A stretch of DNA of 64,000 bases, taken from contig OX375880.1 in the NCBI GenBank assembly GCA_947359465.1, forward strand, positions 12,904,120 to 12,968,119. The letters run 5' to 3'. Each line of letters begins with the position of its first letter. Position 1 is the first letter of the stretch. The notes under the pieces were generated by a model. It did not search any database, was not told the origin of the DNA, and worked only from the letters and a program-made list of their open reading frames with translations. Below are positions 4,164-55,597 of this stretch, piece by piece. Made by a program: the position numbers and the translations under genes. The stretch comes from Metellina segmentata. Lineage: Eukaryota > Arthropoda > Arachnida > Araneae > Tetragnathidae.

Positions 4164-5211
4164 AGAAACAGGTAAAGTAAAATATAATTGTCAAATAAAA
4201 TATCTTCATCCATTTCTAGATGAAGAAGGGCTGTTTAGAGTTAGAGGTAGGTTAATGAACAGTGAGTTAAATGTTAATCACAAATTTCCAATTTTGTTGC
4301 ATGGTAAAAGTAAGCTTACACATTTGATAGTGAATTATGTATATCAACGATATTTACATTTGGGACCTCAGGCTCTACTTTTTCAATTAAGGTTAAAATT
4401 CTGGCTACTAAATGTTCGAACCATTTGTAGAAACATAGTTCACTGTTGTGTAACTTGCTGTAAGGTAAAACCTATCTCATGTCAACAATTGGGTAATTTT
4501 CCAAAAGAAAGAGTGACTGAAAACTATCCCTTCAATTGTTCAGGTATAGATTTTTCAGGTCCATTTTTTATAAAATATAAGTACCAAAGAAAAGGAAATT
4601 ATCATAAAGTATTTGTTGCTATATTCATTTGTTTTGCTACACGTGCTATTCATTTAGAGATAGTTACTGATTTAACTTCACAAGCATTTATAGAAACCTT
4701 AAAGATATTTTTTGCATGGAGAGGGAAAAGTGCTTGTATTTTTTCAGATAATGCAAAAAATTTCATAGGTACTAATAAGGAACTTAAAAGATTAGATGAT
4801 TTAGTTAGAACTCCTGACAATGATTTGTCTGGATACTTGAGTAGTGAAGGTATAAATTGGAAGTTTATTCCATCCAGAGCTCCAAATTTTGGAAGCCTCT
4901 GGGAAGCAGGGGTCAAATCCTTCAAATACCACTTTAAGAGAGTTGTGGGAAATGCCAAATTAACATACGAGGGCTTTTTGACTGTAATAACTCAAATTGA
5001 AGGCATTCTAAATTCCCGTCCTCTTGTGCATTTTTCATCCGATGCAGATGATTTGAATGCTTTGACTTCTGGACACTTTCTAATTGGTAGAATAATTAAC
5101 TGTACTGTTGAACTTGTTGTATCTAATATTCATGATGCTAAGTTAAAACTATGGCAGAGAACTACAAAGTTAGTTCAGCTAATTTGGAGAAAATGGTCAC
5201 ATAATTATTGA
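4126..5211 (+). pseudogene. BEL/Pao integrase
   Basis: 361 open codons. The start MWEDFREEIKSL continues the linker after a frame change. Then come FLDEEGLFRVRGRL, a zinc-binding H..H..C..C region (about residues 60-110) and the integrase core. The three catalytic acids are visible: Asp in CSGIDFSGPFF, Asp in CIFSDNAKNF and Glu in SLWEAGVKSFK. The order and motifs match BEL/Pao retroelements. Integrase joins element cDNA to chromosomal DNA in the nucleus. The frame closes at 5211, and the C-terminal domain continues in another frame (5205-5449). The longest intact reading frame of the element. Confidence 0.9.
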
Positions 5212-7411: not shown

Positions 7412-7590
7412 GTTTAAATAGTTTTATTTACTATCTACTACTAACCTATATAAACATACCCAAATAATAAAGTAGTTTATACTACATTAATGCCCTTATA
7501 ATACGGTTTTTTTTTAATGTGCGCACCTGCCTAGGGGGCAGTTTTGTCTCCATAATGTATCTCGTCCTTAACTAAATTTTCACATTGGAA
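7412..7590. other. Unassigned spacer
   Basis: AT-rich, with no recognisable feature. The sequence flanking the SINE continues from before 7047. Confidence 0.3.
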
Positions 7591-7705
7591 TGGCGTGGGA
7601 GTTTGGAGGGTGGGGTGCCAGCTCAGATGTGACATCGTCATCTGACCATCGATCCCGGACCGTCGCCAATAGCCCGTTTTGTTGTACCATTAAAACGGTA
7701 ATTCA
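7590..7705 (+). repeat. SINE body fragment
   Basis: GGCGTGGGAGTTTGGAG, GGGGTGCCAGCTCAG, CGTCATCTGACCAT and CCCGGACCGTCGCCAATAGC match the SINE body. Head and part of the tail are lost. Confidence 0.7.
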
Positions 7706-7864
7706 ACTACCAATCAACGAATGTTAAAGGTTTTTTTTTTAATGAAAAAATTATAAGCACAACTGCACTTTGAATTTATTATTGGTTCACACAATTTTGA
7801 GCCGAAAAATATTTCCTTTTGAAAAGGGAGTGCTTTGAGTGAAAGAAGTTTGGGGGTTGTGGCC

Positions 7865-8165
7865 AGTGGTTGTCCGAGTAAAATTAATGTCGCACCGGAG
7901 CAACGGAAAGGGCTATTGGAAATCACTCCGAAGAGAAAGATCCAACGACAACACCGTGTTATTTTTAAACACGGTCAGATTACGAGGTCAACTCCCTACG
8001 ACTCTCCGAACTTCCATACCACGCCAACCGGAAGTAAAATTTATGGTACGTTTAACGTGCACCAGCCCCCTTTGGACTCATCGGTCTTTGGTTGGATCGA
8101 GTTTCGAACTCATCACCATCCGATTACGAATCCGTTACTCTACCAAACGGCTTACCGCGGTCCCC
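7865..8165 (-). repeat. SINE with type-2 tRNA-like head
   Basis: The minus strand reads ACCGCGGTAAGCCGTTTGGT, AGAGTAACGGATTCG and GAGTTCGAAACTCGATCCAA (A and B boxes of a different tRNA ancestor from type 1), followed by the shared body and the tail near 7880. The overlapping open frames here (7835-8267) are by-products of the repeat. Confidence 0.75.
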
Positions 8166-32707: not shown

Positions 32708-32715
32708 ATCTAATT
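32708..32715. repeat. Target-site duplication, left (ATCTAATT)
   Basis: Identical to 41962-41969 and directly adjoins CAGTG at 32716. Eight bp is the hAT duplication length. Confidence 0.9.
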
Positions 32716-32859
32716 CAGTGATTTTCAACCTTTTTTTTTTCTCACGGCACACTTTTAACGATTTCAAAATTTGGCGGCACACAAAGTTAAGTTTAAAAGT
32801 TGTTTACTTACCTATAATACGCTGCGTAAAATAGTTTATGATAATAATTTTGAATGTAA

Positions 32860-33013
32860 TAGTAGTAGGAATTTGAGAGTTCTGGATCAGAGGAAAAGCG
32901 GAAAAGTGAGGAAAAGCGGAAAAAGTGAGGAAAATGCGGAGAGCGATAAGAAGCGCAGATTTACCGATAAGGGCTATGAGAGTTCTGAATCGGAGGATCG
33001 GAGGATCGTTTGA
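32860..33013 (+). CDS. Short Ser/Glu/Lys/Arg-rich open frame, left arm
   Basis: Part of an 80-codon frame (32771-33013). The stretch RVLDQRKSGK to RRFTDKGYESSESEDRR is charged, with no fold or known domain, and ends soon after a short CGGAGGATCGGAGGATCG duplication. The right arm carries the same sequence inverted at 41317-41475 without that duplication, where its frame continues into RLKKTRRVDLS and a stop. The upstream TIR-proximal codons are not shared between arms, so the true start is unknown. It may be a nuclear, highly basic peptide, an exon fragment or not a gene. Confidence 0.35.
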
Positions 33014-33740
33014 GGAAAACGAGTTAACCGATAGAATAAGACATGATTAGGGGGATTTCTGGGTAGCTTATTGATAAGGACTTAGTGCAGAGTCCTAGTA
33101 TTAACATGTATATTTAACATAAGAGGAATTTGCATAAATAAGACAGTATTTAATTATTTAAGTTTTTTTTTTTTTTAGTTTATTCGAATTTGGTTACAAA
33201 TCTTACTTTAATTTTCCTTTTTGTTATTTTTTCCCCATAAAATGTGAGATAAAGCTCCATGAGGGAATATTGAAAATTTGTTTGGCATTCTATACATTCA
33301 CTTAAACACTAATTATACATTAGATGCCGTAGCACATATTTTATTGCAGAATTTATTTTTAAATACTGTACACTTAAATAAAAGTACAAAAATCATTTTT
33401 CTTTTATTTGAAAACTTTGCAAGACCCACACTATGAACATGTATCCTTGTAATTTTTTTAAAATTGAACCAAAGAAAACTCACCCAAATACCACAGAAGT
33501 ACAACACGGGACTTACAGAAGTAAGTTGATTAAACAAAGAAACAGTGGAACAAAGTTAATTAAACTTACAAGATTTGATGACCTTAACAAATGAGTAGAA
33601 ACGCAGATGACTACTTGTACATTTGAAGAAGTTATAATCGTATTGAAATCTAAACCATATGTTATTTTTGTAATTATTATTTACTAGTCGTATAATTTTT
33701 TAAAAATAAATCTGGCTAAAATTTAGTGATTCAATTTTTT

Positions 33741-34159
33741 AGATTTACAAACGTTTTGAAATGAAATTTTCTTTGATTTATTGTAAAATATTAAGATGCT
33801 TTTACACAAAAATTAGATACTATTACACATATTTTAATAATGATTTTGAAAAAATACGATTGAAACACATAAATTAGCTATTATTAAAAAATTTTAAATG
33901 CAGATTACAAAAAAAAAAAAAATTTCAATTTACAGTTAAGACATTTTTTTTTAGATTTACAAACGTTTTGAAATGAAATTTTCTTTGATTTATTGTAAAA
34001 TATTAAGATGCTTTTACACAAAAATTAGATACTATTACACATATTTTAATAATGATTTTGAAAAAATACGATTGAAACACATAAATTAGCTATTATTAAA
34101 AAATTTTAAATGCAGATTACAAAAAAAAAAAAAAATTTCAATTTACAGTTAAGACATTT
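33741..34159. repeat. 212-bp tandem duplication, left arm only
   Basis: AGATTTACAAACGTTTTGAA starts both copies (33741 and 33953), which continue nearly identically through GCAGATTAC, an A run and TTTCAATTTACAGTTAAGAC. The matching stretch in the right arm (about 39325-39530) is present once, so the duplication followed the inversion. Confidence 0.88.
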
Positions 34160-35042
34160 AGCAGTTTAATTTCTTAAAGCATGTTTTTATGTAAGAAAAA
34201 AATTAAGAAGAAACCTGTAAAAGTAATATATTTTTTACCTTTAGTTGAAACTTTGCAAGACCCATACTATGAAGACGTTTACTTGTACATTTGAAGTAGT
34301 GAAAATGAATATTAATAAACTTTTAGTCCTTGAAGTTCTAAATGAAATGTTCTTTTTTCTAATGCTCTTACAAACCATACATTTTACTAAACATATGAAC
34401 TTCTTTTTATTTACTTGAAAACCTTGTGTATATTATGCAGTTTAAATTGCAGAGCCAAATGCCAATTTTTTACAAGTATTTTACAAGATACTTTGTATAG
34501 GTCTTTTAGAATTTTAGATGTACTACATTGCTACGTTAAATGGATAGTAAGTGGGTTTTTGTGATTTTTGAAAATAATGTGTACATTTTAAGGCTGCTAA
34601 ACAAAATAAATTATTGCCCTTTCTTGATAGTTAATGCATAATCTAAAGATTTACTCACACCACTGATAGTTTTACACATGAGTAAAATTAAAAAACAACG
34701 GAAAATTTTAAATACTAATTAATTTTTAAATGAACAAATATCATTGAAATAATGTTTAAGTATGAATTGTATGTATTCTTCAAACAATCTCTGCAAAAAA
34801 AAACAAATTGTTATAAAACATATTGAAAAATAATTCTAAAACATATTGAAAAATAATTCTAGAAAGAAGTCATACTGAAACAAAGTAAACTATATAACAC
34901 TTTTTAATTGAAAAAACACAGGATTCATATATTTTACACAAAGTAATGCATTATAGTAAAAACAAAAGAACGTATTTTTTACATGCCTGCATTTTTTAAG
35001 AGACAAATATTTCCTATGAGCCAGTTATTAAAAGCCGTCACC

Positions 35043-35525
35043 TCAGCTTTTGGGGCAATGTAAATGATTTTTGTGATGACCACATGATAGTTTTTCGATC
35101 TCTTTGTTGGTGCTTCGAGCACATAGTACATCGAATTTTGGACACCCAAAGTGTTCCAAGTTGATGTTTGGAATATTCAAGGCATCTAAGCGTTGTTTCT
35201 CAACACAACCACCTTTGTAAGTAACTAGGTACTGAGAGACACTCTTTGTCTGCTTGTACAATTCCAAAAGTTTAGAGTCTAGACTTTCCAAGGGATACAC
35301 GTTTTGCCATACTATGGGACAGAAAGGAAGTCCACAGACGTAATTTTCAACATATCGCACAGTTTTACGATCTTTGACACTAAGTTTATACTTATAAGGC
35401 GATAGGTTAAAACGAATACTTGCAACTACTTGCGATTTTATAGCGATGTAACCGTATTTACGTACTAAGAAACCTTCGTTAGTTTGAAATCCATCAAAAT
35501 CCACAATTGCGCAAATGTTAAACAT
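35043..35525 (-). CDS. Unknown protein, left-arm copy (160 aa, complete)
   Basis: Starts MFNICAIVDFDGFQTNEGFL and ends with a Cys/His cluster, SCGHHKNHLHC (C148, H150, H151, H154, C157), which looks like a small metal site. The N-terminal hydrophobic-D-x-D-G-F segment, a YG(Y/I) start of a second strand and NLEHFGCPKFDV before the Cys/His cluster recall small uncharacterised proteins often repeated in arthropod genomes. An RNase H-fold or exonuclease-like origin is only a guess. The right arm has the same gene (38035-38454) with 9 differences in the 134 shared residues, and both remain open. It points away from the adjoining IAP-like gene, with the two starts about 620 bp apart, so they could share a promoter region. 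Confidence 0.7.
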   Translation of the reverse strand: MFNICAIVDFDGFQTNEGFLVRKYGYIAIKSQVVASIRFNLSPYKYKLSVKDRKTVRYVENYVCGLPFCPIVWQNVYPLESLDSKLLELYKQTKSVSQYLVTYKGGCVEKQRLDALNIPNINLEHFGCPKFDVLCARSTNKEIEKLSCGHHKNHLHCPKS

Positions 35526-35779
35526 TGCTATTGAAAAGCGTTATATGCTCGTGGAAAAATAATTCTAAACTGGAGACACAAAGAACCTAACTATATATAA
35601 CACCATACACTTACTAATCAGTAAAGTTAATCTTATTTTAGTCTTTTATCTTTTGTGAGTAACAATAAACTCGTAAGTGAAGAATGTACTCAGAAAACAC
35701 GTGCTTGTGATAATGTAACAAGTAAAGCTTTATGTTGTAATACAGGATTTTAACAAAAGGGGGTATGCTTAAGTGTGCA

Positions 35780-35803
35780 TGTAATTTTTTTTTTTTTTTT
35801 TTT
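35780..35803. repeat. Poly-T run in left arm
   Basis: About 18 T. The inverted partner near 37727-37739 is a shorter A run, so the tract has changed length since duplication. Confidence 0.6.
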
Positions 35804-36141
35804 TGCTCTATCACGTAGATGAGCTGAATACAATTCAATTCGGTGACTAAACTTGAGCAAGAAAAAAATATGTAACCAAATATAATTTATACTCGAGGAA
35901 CTTGTTTTTTTACTTTCTTTAAAGTACACTGATTTCTCTTGATTATGCTGTTTTATTTTTCTAAATTTACATCAGTAAATTGAATTACTTATTTATGGGC
36001 ACAAATCTTTGCCTTTTGTTGAACAGAAATTAGTATCAGATTTTTTTAAATTGACGAAGATAACCTTTATGAGGGGATTCAACTCAATAGGCCCTATAAT
36101 TTTACACTTAAGAGCAACAGAGCAGTATAGTTTTTTGGAAA

Positions 36142-36694
36142 ATGAATAACAATTATGTAAATTTGAAGCCAAAATTTCCAATCATGTCTATGCTTAATAA
36201 ACGTCTATCTACGTTTAGAGATTGGCCACGCACAAACTTTGAGATTTGGGACCTGGCCGAAAACGGATTCTTTCATACGGGTGTATCGGACAAGGTCAGG
36301 TGTTATTGGTGTGGCGAAGGACTTGAAAATTGGCAAGAAGAGGATGTAGTGAGACACGAACACATAAAGTTTTATCCAAAATGTTTGGTAGCCCAACAAC
36401 AGCAAATGATTTCTGACCCTAGATCAAAAAGAACGTCAACAGATGAAATTGTACAGGTGGATGAAATCAAGATTAATACCAATGGTTTAATAAAACCCTA
36501 TGTAAAAAAATTACCCCTCAAACAACGACAAGGACGTACGACTTTGTAAAATTTGTTTAGAATCAGAAATGGATGCTACTTTACAGCCTTGCGGTCATCT
36601 GGTGACATGCATGAGATGTACGAAAGGTCTCTTAACGTGTCCTATGTGCCGAACCAATATTTTACATAAAATTAAAACGTACATTTGTTACTAA
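36142..36694 (+). pseudogene. IAP-like gene: BIR domain and frameshifted RING finger
   Basis: The first frame (36142-36549, 135 codons) starts MNNNYVNLKPKFPIMSMLNK and carries a BIR domain at residues about 21-84: RLSTFRDWP, ENGFFHTG, then zinc ligands C54, C57, H74 and C81 in exact C-x2-C-x16-H-x6-C spacing. The frame closes at 36549. In the +1 frame, 36545-36694 encodes a C-terminal IAP-type RING (CKIC ... CGHLVTCMRC ... CPMC) ending ICY and a stop. A 7-A run at 36505-36513 is a likely place for the one-base difference. BIR+RING proteins bind caspases or related partners and act as E3 ubiquitin ligases, blocking apoptosis in the cytoplasm. The first ~60 bp lie in the inverted arm, the rest in the loop. 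Similar genes occur in insects and in some of their viruses; the source is undecided. Confidence 0.85.
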
Positions 36695-37045
36695 ACGTTA
36701 TCTACCATTTATCAATTCAAGTAGCAGATGTAATTTTTAGTGACTAACTGAACATGACGTGAAAGAATTCCATAAGAGTGGTATTTTGAGTTTAATGTTA
36801 TTAAAGTAATACATGTGCGGCAGCAAAAAGACTCGTAAGGAGGTACGATACTTCTAAAATAATTATAAGACTTTCTATCAAGGACTTGTGGTAAAATCGT
36901 GTAGGAAAGACTTATACCTCTTCTAAATATATTAAATATAATAACTATTTTACTTATCTGTTGTTTGTTCATTACATGCTAAACCTATGTTGGATAGAGG
37001 AATTTTAAAGTGCCTTAAAAAGGAGTTACAAATTACTTAAATAGG
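36695..37045. other. Remainder of the single-copy loop of the palindrome
   Basis: AT-rich, no gene. It lies between the RING end and the point where the right arm begins (about 37046, TTTATTAAGCATAGACATGC). Confidence 0.5.
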
Positions 37046-37274
37046 TGTTTATTAAGCATAGACATGCTTGGAAATTTTGGCTTCAAATTTACATAATGGT
37101 TATTCATTTTCCTAAAAACTATACTGCTCTGTTACTCTTAAGTGTAAAATTATAGGGCCTATTGAGTTAAATCCCCTCATAAAGGTTATCTTCGTCAATT
37201 TTAAAAAATCGGATACTAGTTCAAAGATACTAATTTCTGTACAACAAAAGGCAAAGATTTGAGCCCATAAATAA

Positions 37275-37461
37275 TCCATCTGTTGGTGTTCTTTTTGATC
37301 TAGGGTCAGCAATCATTTACTGTTGCTGGGCTACCAAACATTTTGGATAAAACTTTACGTGTTCGTGTCTCACTACATCCTCTTCTTGCCAATTTTCAAG
37401 CCCTTCGCCGCACCAATAACACCTGACTCTGTCCGATACACCCGTATAAAACAATCCGTTT
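37275..37461 (-). pseudogene. BIR-domain fragment inserted in right arm
   Basis: The minus strand encodes GLFYTGVSDRVRCYWCGEGL and WQEEDVVRHEHVKFYPKCLV: the middle and end of the BIR domain with all four zinc ligands, as in the left-arm gene. It stops in the linker (AQQQ..). It is displaced: an approximately 80-bp arm segment (CGTCAATTTTAAAAAATC to GAGCCCATAAATAA) is present on both sides (37193-37274 and 37463-37543). The fusion point GACGAAAACGG resembles both parents, suggesting microhomology-mediated joining. The 68-codon frame at 37317-37523 begins in arm sequence and is not a real gene start. Confidence 0.85.
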
Positions 37462-38034
37462 TCGTCAATTTTAAAAAATCTGATACTAGTCAAAGATACT
37501 AATTTCTGTTCAACAAAAGGCAAAGATTTGAGCCCATAAATAAGTAATTCAATTTACTGATCTAAATTTAGAAAAATAAAACGGCATAATCAAGAGAAAT
37601 CAGTATACTTTAAAGAAAGTAAAAAAAACAAGTTCCTCGAGTATAAATTATACTTGGTTACATATTTTTTTTTCTTGCTCAAGTTTAGTCACCGAATTGA
37701 ATTGTATTCAACTCATCTACGTGCTAGAGCAAAAAAAAAAGAACAAATTACATGCACATTTAAGCATACCCCCTTTTCTGTATTACAACTGTACTGTATT
37801 ACTTTTCTGTATCATCCTGTATTACAACGTAAAGCTTTACTTGTCACGTTATCACAAGCACGTGTTTTCTGAGTACATTCTTCACTTACGAGTTTATTGT
37901 TACTCACAAAAGATAAGACTAAAATAAGATTAACTTTACTGATTAGTAAGTGTATGGTGCTATATATAGTTCAGTTCTTTGTGTCTCCAGTTTACAATTA
38001 TTTTTCCACGAGCATATAACGCTTTTGAATAGCA

Positions 38035-38454
38035 ATGTTTAACATTTGCGCAATTGTGGATTTTGATGGATTTCAAACTAACGAAGGTTTCTTAGTACGT
38101 GAATACGGTTACATTGCTATAAAATCGCAAGTAGCTGCGAGTATTCGTTTTAACCTATCGCCTTATAAGTATAAACTTAGTGTCAAAGATGGTAAAACTG
38201 TGCGATATGTTAAAAATTACGTGTGTGGACTTCCTTTCTGTCCCATAGCATGGGAAAACGTGTATCCCTTAGAAAGTCTAGACTATAAACTTTTGGAATT
38301 GTACAAGCAGACAAAGAGTGTCTCTCAGTACCTAGTTGCTTACAAAGGTGGTTGTGTTGAGAAACAACGCTTAGATGCCTTGGATATTCCAAACATCAAC
38401 TTGGAACACTTTGGGTGTCCAAAATTCGATGTACTTTTAATAACTGGCTCATAG
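38035..38454 (+). CDS. Unknown protein, right-arm copy (139 aa, C-terminus lost)
   Basis: Matches the left-arm gene from MFNICAIVDFDGF to FGCPKFDVL with 9 substitutions in 134 residues, mostly conservative. After that a deletion of about 90 bp (equivalent to left-arm 35035-35125, junction near 38434) removes the Cys/His cluster and fuses the frame to LITGS and a stop. If the cluster binds metal, this copy has lost it. It points outward, towards the AlkB-like gene in the opposite orientation. Confidence 0.65.
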   Translation: MFNICAIVDFDGFQTNEGFLVREYGYIAIKSQVAASIRFNLSPYKYKLSVKDGKTVRYVKNYVCGLPFCPIAWENVYPLESLDYKLLELYKQTKSVSQYLVAYKGGCVEKQRLDALDIPNINLEHFGCPKFDVLLITGS

Positions 38455-39967
38455 GAAATATTTGTCTCTTAAAAAATGCAGGCATGTAAAAAATACGTTC
38501 TTTTGTTTTTACTATAATGCATTACTTTGTGTAAAATATATGAATCCTGTGGTTTTTTTTTTCAATTAAAAAGTGTTATATAGTTTACTTTGTTTCAGTA
38601 TGACTTCTTTCAAAATGTTTTAGAATTATTTTTCAATATGTTTTAGAATTATTTTTCAATATGTTTTAGAACAATTTGTTTTTTGCAGAGATTGTTTGAA
38701 GAATACATTAAATTCATACTTAAACATTATTTCAATGATATTTGTTCGTTTAAAAATTAATTAGTATTTAAAATTTTCCGTTGTTTTTTAAATTTTACTC
38801 ATGTGTAAAACTATCAGTGGTGTGAGTAAATCTTTAGATTATGCATTAACTATCAAGAAAGGGCAATAATTTATTTTGTTTAGCAGCCTTAAAATGTACA
38901 CATTATTTTCAAAAATCACAAAAACCCACTTACTATCCATTTAACGTAGCAATGTAGTACATCTAAAATTATAAAAGACCTATACAAAGTATCTTGTAAA
39001 ATACTTGTACAAAATTGACATTTGGCTCTGCAAATTTAAACTACATAACATACACAAGGTTTTCAAGTAAATAAAAATAAGTTCATATGTTTAGTAAAAT
39101 GTATGGTTTGCAAGAGCATTAGAAAAAATAACATTTTATTTAGAACTTCAAGGACTAAAAGTTTATTAATATTCATTTTGACTACTTCAAATGTACAAGT
39201 AAACATCTTCATAGTATGGGTTTTGCAAAGTTTCAACTAAAGGTAAAAAATATTTTACTTTTACAGGTTTCTTCTTAATTTTTTTTCTTACATAAGAACG
39301 CGCTTCAAGAAATTAAACTGCTAAATGTCTCAATTGTTAATCAAAAATAATTTTTTTGTAATCTGCATTTAAAAATTTGTAATAATAGCTAATTTATATG
39401 TTTCAATCGTATTTTTTCAAAATCATTATTAAAATATGTGTAATAGTATCTAATTTTGGTGTAAAAGCATCTTAACATTTTACAATAAATCAAAGAAAAT
39501 TTCATTTAAAAAAGTTTGTAAATCTAAAAAATTAAATCACTAAATTTCAGACAGATTTATTTAAATAAAAAAATAATATGGCAAAGAAAGAATAATTAAA
39601 AAATAATATATGGTTTGATTTTAATACAATTATACCTTCTTCAAATGAACAAGGAGTCATTTGCGTTTCTACTCATTTGTTAAAGTCATCCAACTTTGTA
39701 AGTTTAATTAACTTTGTTCCACTGTTTCTTTGTTTAATCAACTTACTTCTGTAAGTCCCGTGTTGTACTTCTGTGGTATATGGGTGAGTTTTCTTTGGTT
39801 CAATTAAAAAAATTTACAAGGAAGCATGTTCATAGTATGGGTCTTGCAAAGTTTTCAAATAAAAGAAAAAAGATTTTTGTATTTTTACTTAAGGGTATGT
39901 TATTTAAAAATAAATTCTGCAATAAAATATGTGCTATAGCATCTAATGTATAATTAGTGTTTAAGTG
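38455..39967. repeat. Right arm of the palindrome, AT-rich spacer
   Basis: Inverted counterpart of 33299-35034. Shared landmarks include TACACATTATTTTCAAAAAT, GTAATAGTATCTAATTTT and CTTTGTTCCACTGTTTCTTT. No frame of note. Small indels and substitutions throughout show the arms are not recent identical copies. Confidence 0.8.
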
Positions 39968-39997
39968 AAAGCATCTAAATTAAAAAAACATAAATAT

Positions 39998-40558
39998 TTA
40001 TAGCAAATAAAATTTCATTTCAGATCTTGCATTGTAAAAGACACAATTTTTAAAATTAGAGTTGTAGTTCTTTCTAGAAAACACAAACTGTCTTTTTTGT
40101 CCAAATGAAACAGACGCTATGGGTGCATTATGATCCAAGTCCTTCTCGTTGTCTTTATGTGCAGCTATAGAATCCTTACCATCTTTATAATAGTTCATCA
40201 ACACAAAATTAAATCTTGCATCAATTATTCGTTCCACTTCACCCTTTATTTCCAACAGTAAAGGAGACCAGGGCTTGGCTGCAATACACGATCCACTAAA
40301 GGTATAGCTTATACCTTCGTCCCCGTATGCTACAAGTTGTCGAGGCACAGTATGTTTCTTACCGTAAATTTCTATAGTAGTTTCCTCTTTCTTTAAATAC
40401 GTTAATTCGTTTACCAATCGACGGAAATATGACCAACCAACACAATCCGCAAACAATTTACCATATTCATAGCATAAAGAATCTTTACAGTATTTCTGAA
40501 AACACTGTTCTTTGTCTGTTCGAATTTTCTTTGCAGGTCTAATATCACTAGAATTCAT
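39998..40558 (-). pseudogene. AlkB/ALKBH2-like dioxygenase, C-terminally truncated
   Basis: 186 codons starting MNSSDIRPAKKIRTDKEQCF. Family features: VPRQLVAYGDEGISYTFSG (substrate-loop region, residues 71-89), KPWSPLLLEI, FNFVLMNYYKDGKDSIAAHK with the iron ligands H134 and D136 of the HxD motif, and PIASVSFGQKRQFVF. These match ALKBH2/3-type DNA repair enzymes, which use iron and 2-oxoglutarate to remove alkyl groups from bases. The frame then leaves the family (CVFYNARSEMK..) and stops. The distal iron His and the 2-oxoglutarate-binding Arg, expected about 50-60 residues on, are missing, so activity is unlikely. The stop lies 31 bp from where the inverted arm resumes (39967), so the truncation and the arm breakpoint may be one event. 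The left arm has no copy. Confidence 0.85.
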
Positions 40559-41310
40559 GATATATCTAAAAACAGTAGAAGGACAAAAATCCAGAGAAGC
40601 AGTTATTCAAAGACCCAAGAAACAAGTTCAATTACGCTTTTAAAAGCCTCTTAGTTATCAAATAGTATAATCACTTTATTTTGTTTGGTCCCTAACATTT
40701 TTCAGATACCACAACACGTGTACTTCAGTAGTTTAAGCTAATCTTTAATTTTCTTATGAATCACTTTTATTGATGACTCCTTGTATACGTCCGTTCCTTC
40801 TATTTAACCTACACGTGCAAAAACATACTTCTTAGTCATGTGTAATTCTCTTGTGACGTCATTCACAACGTCACTCCTCGCCTTGTATTCCTCTGCGCTT
40901 ACGTTCGTAGACAAATCGCTGTGATTAGGTACCTACATGTTCTAACAAGTAATCTGACGTCACAGAATGACCATTCCCAATTAAATAAACCAAACCTGTT
41001 GCCACTCACCCGTAAAGAAACTTCTATGTAATTCCTACAAAAATAAAACAACTCAACTCCATTCCTGGAAAATAGAAATTATTTAAAGTAATAATAGTAG
41101 GAATCCTACATCTCAACTTGACTCCACATGACATCACATCAAAATCTCAGAAAAGATCTCAAGTCCCAAACGTAAACACACTGCCGGTTGCCATTCCACA
41201 ATAGATAAACTATAAAAAACCTGAAATCAAAACAAAACAACTCAACTCCACTCGACCCCAATGTTATCACTTAGCAGCAGTTCTCCTTCACCTCAACTCA
41301 AGTCCACACG
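40559..41310 (-). promoter_or_regulatory. Upstream region of the AlkB-like gene with two CRE-type sites
   Basis: Perfect TGACGTCA palindromes (ATF/CREB-type sites) lie at 40854-40861 and 40955-40962, with ACACGTG E-box-like words near 40716 and 40811. They are 300-400 bp upstream of the ATG. No TATA motif is clearly placed. This segment is unique to the right arm. Regulatory function is inference from motif identity. Confidence 0.35.
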
Positions 41311-41316
41311 TCTCGT

Positions 41317-41475
41317 TTTCTTCAAACGATCCTCCGATTCAGAACTCTCATAGCCCTTATCGGTAAATCTGCGCTTCTTATCGCTCTCCGCATTTTCCTC
41401 ACTTTTTCCGCTTTTCCTCACTTTTACGCTTTTCCTCTGATCCAGAACTCTCAAATTCCTACTAGTACTTGTAAT
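41317..41475 (-). pseudogene. Ser/Glu/Lys/Arg-rich peptide segment, right arm
   Basis: Inverted counterpart of 32860-33019. On the minus strand a frame reads RNLRVLDQRKSVKVRK ... RRFTDKGYESSESEDRLKKT and RRVDLS, then stops. No start codon is evident upstream in the same frame. It could be an exon of a gene, since a second frame contains EFESSGSEEKRK, a near-repeat of YESSESEDRLK. Confidence 0.35.
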
Positions 41476-41930
41476 ATAATATGTACTACAAAAACAACAG
41501 TACGTTTATTAAGGGATTAATTACAAGGTAATAATAAGAATACTTTTAATGAGAAATTTGAGCTTGAGGTTTTTTGATAATTTCATTTTTATTGGGTCTT
41601 AAAAATGTCATTTAACAGTCTCGATCTTTTTTTTTTTTTTCGTTTTTATGTTTGTTAATATTGAAAATCCGAATACACACAAATAAGATGTAGAAAATTG
41701 TGATAATACTTTTAAAGCTTTTTTTGACTATCATGGGATAATCGCATCACGTTGGGGCGAATATTTCACTTTATGAAAGGTCACAGTTATCGAATATAAA
41801 ACCAGTTAAAAATATGGTACTTAACTGTAAAAACTACAGTTTTCTTTAATTTAAATAAACTTTACTCGTAATAAAAAAAAAGCATTATAATTTTTACTCC
41901 ATACATTTCTAAAATTTGGGGGCACACAAA
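41476..41930. other. Right-end spacer of the 9.2-kb element
   Basis: AT-rich, no gene. Not shared with the left end apart from the terminal region. Confidence 0.4.
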
Positions 41931-41961
41931 AGTGCCGCGGCACAGTGGTTGAGAATCACTG

Positions 41962-41969
41962 ATCTAATT
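41962..41969. repeat. Target-site duplication, right (ATCTAATT)
   Basis: Identical to 32708-32715 and directly follows CACTG at 41961. Confidence 0.9.
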
Positions 41970-42844: not shown

Positions 42845-43406
42845 CACTACCCTACAATAATGGACCGGACTCCAGCGGATTTGTCATAAAATCCAACTAC
42901 TGGTTTGGGAGTGTTTTTCGTGGTATGGCCTGGGACTTTCGCATGTCGTTCCTGGTCAATTGAACGCCGACGCCTACATGAACATTAAAGACAATCAGGT
43001 TCTTCCTGCGCTCTGGCAATTTTATGGAATGGACGAATGTTACTTCCAGGACAACAACGCATCGTGTCATGTTGCAGCCTCTGTCAAGCAGTGGTATTGC
43101 GATATTGACTTAAAACGTCTTCCCTGGCCTGCTCAGAGTCCCGACCTAAACCCCATAGAACATTTGTGGGACGCGTTAGAGCGACGCTTACGGACCACGG
43201 AACCACGTCTGAAATCTACAGCTGAGCTGGCGACATTCTTTCAGCAGGAATGGACACAAATACCCATAGCTGTGTATCAAAACCTTGTTGAAAGTGTGCC
43301 CAGAAGGGTTATTTGTGTCATTGCAGCACATGTTAGACCATTCCCTATTAAAGAATGTATTATCTCCCTTATACCATGACATGCGGTCCATTATTGTAGG
43401 GTAGTG
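42845..43406 (+). mobile_element. Internally deleted Tc1-like element
   Basis: Inverted ends CACTACCCTACAATAATGGA (left) and TCCATTATTGTAGGGTAGTG (right). TA follows the right end; the left flank is CA, probably a mutated TA. 562 bp, so roughly two thirds of a full Tc1 element is missing, including the N-terminal DNA-binding domain. Confidence 0.88.
42900..43379 (+). pseudogene. Tc1-like transposase, C-terminal half
   Basis: Begins in one frame with FGSVFRGMAWDFRM (the W-G..(S/F)..G.G region), changes frame, then runs 42960-43379 as MNADAYMNIKDNQVLPALWQ, ECYFQDNNASCHVA with the second catalytic Asp, WPAQSPDLNPIEHLWDALER with the catalytic Glu, and LVESVPRRVICVIAA. Spacing is that of Tc1 (DD34E) transposases. 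The first catalytic Asp and both helix-turn-helix motifs are gone. The remaining 139-codon frame is intact, suggesting a fairly young loss. Confidence 0.88.
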
Positions 43407-54577: not shown

Positions 54578-55597
54578 CTAACGAAAGCAACTGTATTTGT
54601 TTTTAAAAATTGTTTTCTTAATTCTTTTGAACAGTTTGTCTTTTTTCGGTTTGCGGTCTTTTCCATTCCTTGGTGGAGATGTTAAGTTTTCTGCTCTGGA
54701 CAGGAAAATCAAGTCCCAACTAGGGGCTTCAGTGCTGGTAGAATGTGTCCCTTCATCTTCATTTTCTTCTTTTATGCATGTCAAACTAGGAACGTACTGC
54801 ATTTTTTTCTTCCTCTTGCGCCATTTTTTGCGATGTTGAATATAAAATCGCTTATTCATCAAGAAGAAATCCGGGCCAGGTACTACTTTATCGCTTTCAG
54901 CGGTCCCCAAATATTCCAGCTCTATGCGTCTACGCCTGTATAGGCCTTCTAATCCAGGTAAAGATGTGCTCTTTCTTGGCGCAGTATATTTCGCACTTTT
55001 TGTTTTCACAGATGCATTCGAAGAATTTCCACTTGCAAATCCAAATCTTTTTGGCCCTTTGAAATTTTCCAATGTCTCTTGAATTTTGTTTAATTCCACG
55101 TAAGAGTTTGGTGAATCTCCAACGACAAAGATGTTTGCTTTTTTAGGTTCTGTAAGCGGATCCACATTCTTTCCTCTTTCATCAGATTTCATTGGAGTAT
55201 TAAGGGAATCTCCGCAAGCAAAAATATCAGTCTTTGTTTGTTTTTTAAATGCATGCACATTCTCATTTGTCCATTCAAGTACTTTTGAGGTCGATTGCTC
55301 CATTTCGAAGTTTTCGATCTCAACTTGAATCGACCCGTCCACTTTTAGGATATTTTTCACTGAACCAGTTTTGGAGTGTTTAATCTGTTTCTTTTCGGTC
55401 ACCATTGCTTCAATATTCCGATTTTTAGCTATGTCTGTATCAAACTCTTCTATATTTTCCCTGATGAAAGCCATGGTCAACATTAAGTATGCTGCCAGTG
55501 GTAAAATTGCTGTTACATTACCGACGATAATAATCTCGAAAAGTCCAAAAAACCAAGGACATAAGACCAGCCATCCAATAACAGCAGATTTATCCAT
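54578..55597 (-). CDS. Hypothetical membrane-anchored basic protein, intronless, 339 aa
   Basis: The best host-like gene here. Residues 5-45 are strongly hydrophobic (IGWLVLCPWFFGLFEIII, then TAILPLAAYLMLTMAFI) with only E21 and N27 between, giving a two-pass hairpin. The rest is hydrophilic. Three imperfect repeats lie 30-31 residues apart: DIFACGDSLNTPM (124-136), NIFVVGDSPNSYV (155-167) and FGFASGNSSNASV (185-197). Basic clusters follow at RRRRIELEYLG (221-231), HRKKWRKRKKKM (255-266) and the tail KPKKDKLFKRIKKTIFKNK. The start is chosen because it leads the hydrophobic hairpin and lies about 50 nt after the expected transcription start below a TATA motif. It ends 71 nt before tandem histone-type stem-loops. 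I recognise no family, and it is not a histone. Expression linked to DNA replication or the germ line is a guess from the 3' end. Confidence 0.75.
   Translation of the reverse strand: MDKSAVIGWLVLCPWFFGLFEIIIVGNVTAILPLAAYLMLTMAFIRENIEEFDTDIAKNRNIEAMVTEKKQIKHSKTGSVKNILKVDGSIQVEIENFEMEQSTSKVLEWTNENVHAFKKQTKTDIFACGDSLNTPMKSDERGKNVDPLTEPKKANIFVVGDSPNSYVELNKIQETLENFKGPKRFGFASGNSSNASVKTKSAKYTAPRKSTSLPGLEGLYRRRRIELEYLGTAESDKVVPGPDFFLMNKRFYIQHRKKWRKRKKKMQYVPSLTCIKEENEDEGTHSTSTEAPSWDLIFLSRAENLTSPPRNGKDRKPKKDKLFKRIKKTIFKNKYSCFR

Follow-up and report, generated by a model that had tools for sequence, protein, structure and literature searches.

The window, a stretch of 64 000 nucleotides from the spider Metellina segmentata (contig OX375880.1 of assembly GCA_947359465.1, positions 12 904 120 to 12 968 119; G000:C8:12904120-12968119 in our numbering), contains at 32708-41969 a block with an apoptosis-inhibitor (IAP) gene, an AlkB-like gene and two copies of a small gene that we call X. 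We propose that this block is probably a non-autonomous, palindromic member of the Maverick/Polinton (adintovirus-like) elements, which integrated into a pre-existing miniature inverted-repeat transposable element (MITE) of the hAT type. A first-pass annotation had read the block as a non-autonomous hAT element that moved the genes as cargo, the cargo being host-derived or an integrated DNA-virus segment taken over by hAT ends; its observations were right, and its interpretation was in part supported and mostly wrong. Our comparisons cover the assembly from which the window comes (1.665 Gb). Matches were scored best first, namely 40 of 334 candidates for the terminal repeat, 150 of 1136 for X, 150 of 947 for IAP, 91 of 393 for PolB, 116 of 5736 for the integrase and 40 of 287 for the MITE; the ranking is biased towards intact copies and the candidate totals are loose first-look counts. 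From this genome we fetched ten copies that retain both inner ends, eight of the window's kind (class A1) and two of a capsid/integrase type.

The block is a nested insertion, because copies of the MITE cross the junction unbroken and, at other places of the genome, the inner ends have no hAT sequence beside them. At its borders, a perfect 8 bp repeat (ATCTAATT) lies at 32708-32715 and 41962-41969 and encloses 15 bp hAT ends (CAGTGATTTTCAACC and CAGTGATTCTCAACC; 14 of 15 positions matching), a motif that occurs in the window without mismatch at these two sites only. The CAGTG/CACTG-type ends and perfect duplication already reported for the block are thereby confirmed, the repeats being exact at both borders. 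When the two hAT flanks were joined (296 nt), all 40 scored MITE copies aligned unbroken over the junction at 86-91% identity and without the block, contrary both to the idea that a hAT element had moved the genes and to the expectation that further copies would combine hAT ends with the block. In a genome search with the first 353 bases of the block, the outer and inner parts matched separate sets of places. The outer part (to query position 152) matched ten other places at 89-92%, the matches ending there, while the inner ends were found elsewhere, at up to 100% identity and without hAT sequence, with matches starting at query positions 143-156 (32861 is position 154) apart from two partial rows starting at 208 and 247. 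Both ends were recognisable in three of the six MITE copies examined (685, 687 and 983 bp), with 7, 7 and 8 of the 8 duplication bases matching. The outer 631 bp has an 8 bp duplication (8 of 8 bases in the window), short inverted ends and no transposase, as hAT MITEs do; it is an ordinary hAT MITE of ~630 bp that houses another element. Its parts are the following.

32708..32715, unstranded: left 8 bp target site duplication of the hAT MITE, ATCTAATT (sequence repeat)
32716..32854, + strand: left part of the host hAT MITE, with terminal repeat 32716-32730 (ends, genome matches)
41476..41961, + strand: right part of the host hAT MITE, with terminal repeat 41947-41961 (ends, genome matches)
41962..41969, unstranded: right 8 bp target site duplication of the hAT MITE (sequence repeat)

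The inner element (32861-41469) begins with AGTAGT, finishes with AGTACT and carries at its ends an inverted repeat of ~160 bp, the terminal inverted repeat (TIR) that we call TIR1. It is flanked on both sides by the 6 bp duplication TGTAAT; with random flanks, a 6 bp match with AG/CT ends and the same slack arose in 0.03% of 20 000 trials. A 5 bp target site, TAGTA, was considered and dropped, since the other copies have 6 bp duplications. Between the ends, 33292-36445 recurs in inverted orientation at 37035-39974, as a single long repeat with interruptions whose BLAST pieces are 88.8-94.6% identical. This repeat and the second, inner pair of ends were both absent from the first-pass annotation. 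The parts of the inner element, including its open reading frames (ORFs), are listed below.

32855..32860, unstranded: left target site duplication of the nested element, TGTAAT (sequence repeat)
32861..33023, + strand: TIR1, left, AGTAGT start (inverted repeat, genome matches)
33024..33291, + strand: left subterminal segment uniqL, A1-typical (comparison with A1 copies)
33292..36445, + strand: left palindrome arm, comprising an AT-rich part, X, the promoter region and the BIR part of IAP (BLAST)
35043..35525, - strand: gene X, left copy, 160 aa (ORF)
36142..36549, + strand: IAP gene, BIR part (PF00653, 2.1e-18)
36506..36694, + strand: IAP gene, RING part, in another frame than BIR (PF13920, 2.3e-13)
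37035..39974, - strand: right palindrome arm, carrying deletions and rearranged in its IAP part (BLAST)
37317..37553, - strand: BIR part, broken mirror copy (arm comparison)
38035..38454, + strand: gene X, right copy, 139 aa, with an altered 3' part (ORF)
39998..40558, - strand: ALKBH2-like gene, 3' part missing (Pfam, PDB match)
40559..41311, - strand: AlkB upstream region, of which 40559-40850 is A2-like (comparison with A2)
41312..41469, - strand: TIR1, right, AGTACT finish (inverted repeat)
41470..41475, unstranded: right target site duplication of the nested element, TGTAAT (sequence repeat)

The ends of the inner element are those of a Maverick. Nine of the ten fetched copies have exactly (AGT)2//(ACT)2 at both ends, the other beginning with AATAGT, and nine of the ten are flanked by a perfect 6 bp duplication that differs from copy to copy, the exception being C9:64590530-64600556, which has no matching pair; 6 bp duplications also flank the window element and the C10 and C7 elements described below. 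The same combination of (AGT)2//(ACT)2 ends and 6 bp target site duplications is given for vertebrate Mavericks in passages of Barreat and Katzourakis (PMC8097293). Furthermore, TIR1 bounds elements with a different interior (C5:19637576-19647224, C5:9956206-9965969 and, with its right end not found, a third capsid/integrase element from C5:17618824 onward). These partners encode an integrase, ORFs at capsid-gene positions, a protease-like protein, a packaging ATPase, a PC4-like protein and AlkB. The integrase matches rve (1.2e-13) and Chromo (2.3e-9), and AlkB is matched at 2e-27 over Pfam positions 6-194, being complete at 216 aa in C5:9956206. The profile matches of the packaging ATPase (Adeno_IVa2, 2.6e-4), the protease-like ORF (Peptidase_C5, 0.055) and the PC4-like protein are weak; the ORFs at the capsid-gene positions are 245, 138 and 437 aa long, although full length is not reached in every copy. 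Integrase, capsid, protease and packaging ATPase genes are all lacking from the window copy. The part of the earlier proposal that saw an integrated DNA-virus segment therefore stands in substance, since elements with the same TIR encode a Maverick-type integrase, a putative ATPase, a capsid-like set and AlkB, while the supposed takeover by hAT ends is unsupported. The third element (L051-L052, G000:C5:17620300-17634300) is split by an insert resembling a long-terminal-repeat retroelement, and its ORFs were judged by eye.

Complete Mavericks probably exist in this genome as well, because PolB (PF03175; 64 matches among those scored) adjoins an integrase at a distance of 7.5-9 kb at nine places, counted by eye. 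Integrases 55-60% identical to the query also occur as pairs on opposite strands, 1.8-13.9 kb apart, at seven places counted by eye, six of them with equal scores; further Maverick families of this genome may therefore form palindromes as well.

Three classes of palindrome were distinguished. In class A1, TIR1 is followed by a 268 bp segment, 1.7 kb of AT-rich DNA, X, the promoter region, IAP, a variable centre and then the mirror image. All eight two-ended A1 copies contain an inverted match, 1.2-5.4 kb long and 98.0-99.8% identical, and in six of them its longest stretch reaches 4.2-5.4 kb, making these elements of 9.5-12 kb near-complete palindromes. The other two, C9:559527 (6.4 kb, with a 1.2 kb match) and C5:124499396 (6.2 kb, with a 2.05 kb match), are partial and lack IAP on one side. 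The left arms of different copies share 94.4-99.8% identity, the highest values being those within sister groups. The A2 copy C7:79475167-79489692 (14 526 bp, duplication TATATT), which was read in parts, carries AlkB, X and IAP in each arm and, towards the centre, a PC4-like ORF that weakly matches the protein of the partner (E 2e-5); wherever its inverted stretches were compared, identity was 99.7-100%. The third class is represented by C10:116787325-116801806 (14 482 bp, duplication GGCATA), where an N-terminal part of PolB stands in both arms; in the one element read, its palindrome extends for 4176 bp at 99.95% identity, to the edge of the stretch read. This arrangement, with a core gene cut short and mirrored, is what would be expected if one end of a larger genome had been copied as its own mirror image, and nine pairs of PolB halves were counted by eye among the PolB matches. 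Three fetched pieces (L018, L024 and L028) each contain a run of 200 N, and palindromes may be under-assembled. Outside the short copy in L019, the flanks (50-619 and 7471-8038) form an inverted repeat of ~97% identity, so this copy may sit inside another repeat. At G000:C13:73153116-73171703, four IAP copies all point the same way at a spacing of ~6.0 kb; each has an internal TAG, and together they look like a tandem array rather than palindromes.

The pairing of genes extends over the genome. Among the scored matches of X, 116 of 150 form 58 divergent pairs with a spacing of 3.6-9.6 kb (median 5.95 kb), and 147 of 150 are free of stops; among those of IAP, 106 of 150 form 53 convergent pairs and 22 of 150 contain a stop. 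Eight of the 53 IAP pairs are affected by stops, and in six of these the stop is present in both arms, whereas six shared pairs were reached in none of 100 000 trials in which as many stops were placed at random. Likewise, X is cut to equal length in both arms of five copies (L011/12, L015/16, L017/18, L022/23 and L024/25). The shared stops and the equal shortening indicate that mutations mostly reach both arms, either by copying or by later formation of the palindrome. As judged from codon comparisons, IAP is under purifying selection, with dN/dS of 0.13-0.26 between sublineages (six intact copies); an intact copy (L021) is a single ORF of 183 aa with a BIR zinc domain and a C-terminal RING.

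The window copy is, to judge from these comparisons, an aged hybrid, of which the left end (TIR1, uniqL, arm, X, IAP) is A1 and the outer right side (AlkB, arm, X) is A2. Its uniqL matches A1 copies at up to 100%. On the outer right side, it is 94.5% identical overall to the A2 copy versus 88.5-92.1% to ten A1 copies; further inward on the right arm, the AT-rich part is nearer to A1 and the X part about equally near to both. This origin would account for an arm identity below that of other copies and for the presence of AlkB on one side only. The outer right part may in turn derive from yet another element; positions 1-545 of L039, beside a PolB gene, match window 40781-41299 at 78%. The genes reported by the first-pass annotation were all recovered: BIR and RING domains, though in separate frames in this copy; an ALKBH2-like gene, for which ALKBH2 is the closest PDB match (3.8e-34), though without its 3' part; and a gene of then unstated identity twice, as inverted copies that are 92% identical to each other. 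Among the block ORFs tested, no transposase was seen, also as reported. The complete 2OG/Fe (2-oxoglutarate/iron) site of AlkB-type dioxygenases consists of HxD...H and an Arg. In the window, the Pfam match of AlkB ends at position 141 of 194; the gene therefore lacks its distal part and with it a complete site. X measures 181 aa in L020/L021 and L043 versus 160 aa in the left window copy. The genes of the window copy thus look decayed, perhaps with the exception of the left X, which is nevertheless shorter than intact copies. In the TIR regions (32861-33013 and 41293-41469), an open frame rich in Lys, Ser and Glu (NLRVLDQRKSG...ESSESED) with short internal tandem repeats occurs at both ends.

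Replication of Mavericks is attributed to a protein-primed polymerase (pPolB), as is established for the family, and in adenoviruses, defective genomes can arise when a snap-back during strand displacement mirrors one end of the linear genome. We infer a similar route for the palindromes, in which a linear Maverick genome, primed by protein and replicating by strand displacement, would snap back and copy one end onto the other. The mirrored product would retain a replication origin and integration ends on both sides; with two working ends kept, the pPolB and integrase of complete Mavericks could copy and insert palindromes in trans. The arms would stay alike because each round of replication can re-copy one from the other. 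IAP would be kept by selection, presumably because an element, or its helper, is copied more readily in host cells that are kept from dying, and AlkB would mend alkylated bases in single-stranded intermediates.

Several observations weigh against the interpretation of the block as a palindromic Maverick derivative with arms that are kept alike. The 437 and 245 aa ORFs of the partners are labelled capsid-like from gene order, size and features known of capsid proteins, and profile searches with the putative capsid ORFs gave weak or no match. No one-piece element with both TIR1 and pPolB was found, and no pPolB ORF was seen on the three TIR1 capsid/integrase elements, the far end of the third being unread. 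Homogenisation is not always visible: the window arms are 91.1% identical, its X pair differs by four synonymous and nine nonsynonymous changes and looks neutral, and sister A1 elements are as alike (99.1-99.8%) as the arms within an element. A stop is confined to one arm in two of the eight affected IAP pairs, and in C9:64590530-64600556 (L020/L021), just one of the two arms has an open IAP, that of the other being broken. In addition, X is shortened in most A1 copies fetched by their terminal repeat, and the IAP pair L019-L021 gives a dN/dS of 0.90, based on seven changes. The lack of pPolB on the capsid elements is also what would be expected of a multipartite Maverick, in which palindromes are functional segments and the genes are spread over end-sharing elements maintained together, for instance as X with IAP; AlkB with X, IAP and a PC4-like gene; capsid with integrase and AlkB; and PolB. 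TIR1 is indeed common to the X/IAP palindromes and the capsid/integrase elements, IAP is under selection, and the A2 and PolB-N palindromes are of near-equal length with the first 52 bp 90% alike. Segmented viruses related through pPolB exist in the bidnaviruses. Vesanto virus is another, according to passages of PMC8363768. However, the PolB palindrome as read holds the N-terminal part only, and the nine places at which PolB lies close to an integrase mean that a one-piece helper is probably available; we therefore regard a multipartite organisation as unlikely. A broader form of the idea, in which a multipartite or helper-satellite Maverick system has end-sharing palindromes that divide labour and twin arms that proof-copy each other, keeping IAP-like survival genes intact, appears to us slightly less unlikely, if still doubtful.

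The remaining explanations fare worse than a palindromic Maverick derivative inside a MITE. Capture and transport of IAP, AlkB and X by a non-autonomous hAT element would agree with the hAT-like ends and perfect duplication that enclose the block, but the 40 scored MITE copies run across the junction without it, and the inner ends are found at other places free of hAT sequence and, in nine of ten copies, with 6 bp duplications; for this locus the idea is refuted, and we consider it extremely improbable. Chromosomal palindromes do undergo gene conversion, and an inverted duplication of a host gene cluster could in principle have had its arms homogenised in this ordinary way. Nine of the ten fetched copies are nevertheless exact units with Maverick ends and a 6 bp duplication, each at its own site, and a first look gives 1136 candidate places for X and 947 for IAP; the Maverick ends and duplications largely rule out such an origin, which we rate as very improbable. 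Fold-back long reads exist and could have produced false palindromes during assembly, an artefact to which the 200-N gaps in the three fetched pieces might point. A single fold-back read cannot, however, be the source of arms that differ by ~9% in the window and by 62 mismatches in C9:64590530, and the 6 bp duplications stand at the outer borders of nine of the ten copies, which makes this explanation very improbable too.

Gene X had no match in the prokaryote genome contigs searched or, at E values up to 1, in the PDB, where the 437 aa protein likewise had none at E values up to 0.1. IMG/VR scans with X, AlkB, BIR, the 437 aa capsid-like protein and a 24-mer of the TIR returned no relative, AlkB was the sole match in PHROGs, and an AlphaFold model of X (predicted local distance difference test score, pLDDT, 31) was unusable. 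X may resemble a family of small proteins of arthropods that combine a DxxGF-like motif at the N terminus with a Cys/His cluster at the C terminus. Elsewhere in the window, 4255-5211 is a retroelement remnant with an Integrase_H2C2 zinc domain, which we take to be probably of the BEL/Pao type; 42978-43379, ~1 kb to the right of the MITE, is a fragment of a DDE_3 (mariner/Tc1-type) transposase; and 54578-55597 (- strand) is a 339 aa ORF with no Pfam match above the curated cut-off. A scan of the window with Rfam gave nothing at gathering scores.

Maverick ends, integrase and capsids are known, whereas the searchable literature, which is partial, yielded no palindrome family that carries IAP and X in twin copies. 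No description of palindromic Mavericks appeared in the titles, abstract openings and passages that this literature offers, a coverage that includes no palindrome-worded search; no on-topic title or abstract opening combined hAT, transposon, Polinton, adintovirus or Maverick with IAP, AlkB or spider; and the word palindrome has no occurrence in PMC11071308 and PMC10175614. If our reading is true, a Maverick lineage gave rise to twin-gene palindromes at many places in one genome, probably moved in trans. A virus of transposon-like habit would then have its own natural equivalent of defective viral genomes, one in which purifying selection still acts on an apoptosis inhibitor. It can now be tested by what route the ends of protein-primed elements become mirrored and homogenised, and whether Mavericks spread in the germ line with the help of IAP and AlkB.

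Several known systems share features with the block. With hAT MITEs, the outer 631 bp has the hAT-like ends and 8 bp duplications in common, although the MITE is here an insertion target, unlike a carrier. Among adenoviruses and further linear DNAs that are primed by protein, palindromic defective genomes have a mirrored end, an origin at both ends and a helper that copies them in trans. The palindromes described here differ from these in being integrated at many genomic places, with at least one gene, IAP, under purifying selection, and their relation to a helper would be analogous. Bidnaviruses have several segments with shared termini, as here. The same is given for Vesanto virus in passages of PMC8363768, but the elements of M. 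segmentata are double-stranded DNA insertions with an integrase, known from sequence alone. The closest likeness in ends and partners is to Maverick/Polinton elements (Adintoviridae, Orthopolintovirales), which in their vertebrate members share the (AGT)2//(ACT)2 ends and 6 bp duplications, and whose integrase with rve and chromodomain recurs in the same-TIR relatives, next to putative packaging ATPase, protease-like and capsid-like genes. Passages of PMC8097293 describe vertebrate Mavericks as one-piece elements of 13-25 kb (12.7-24.6 kb) with modest TIRs of 46-1447 bp; the window class, in contrast, has no core genes but twin X and IAP, and its inverted repeat measures 4.2-5.4 kb per arm in six of eight A1 copies of 9.5-12 kb.

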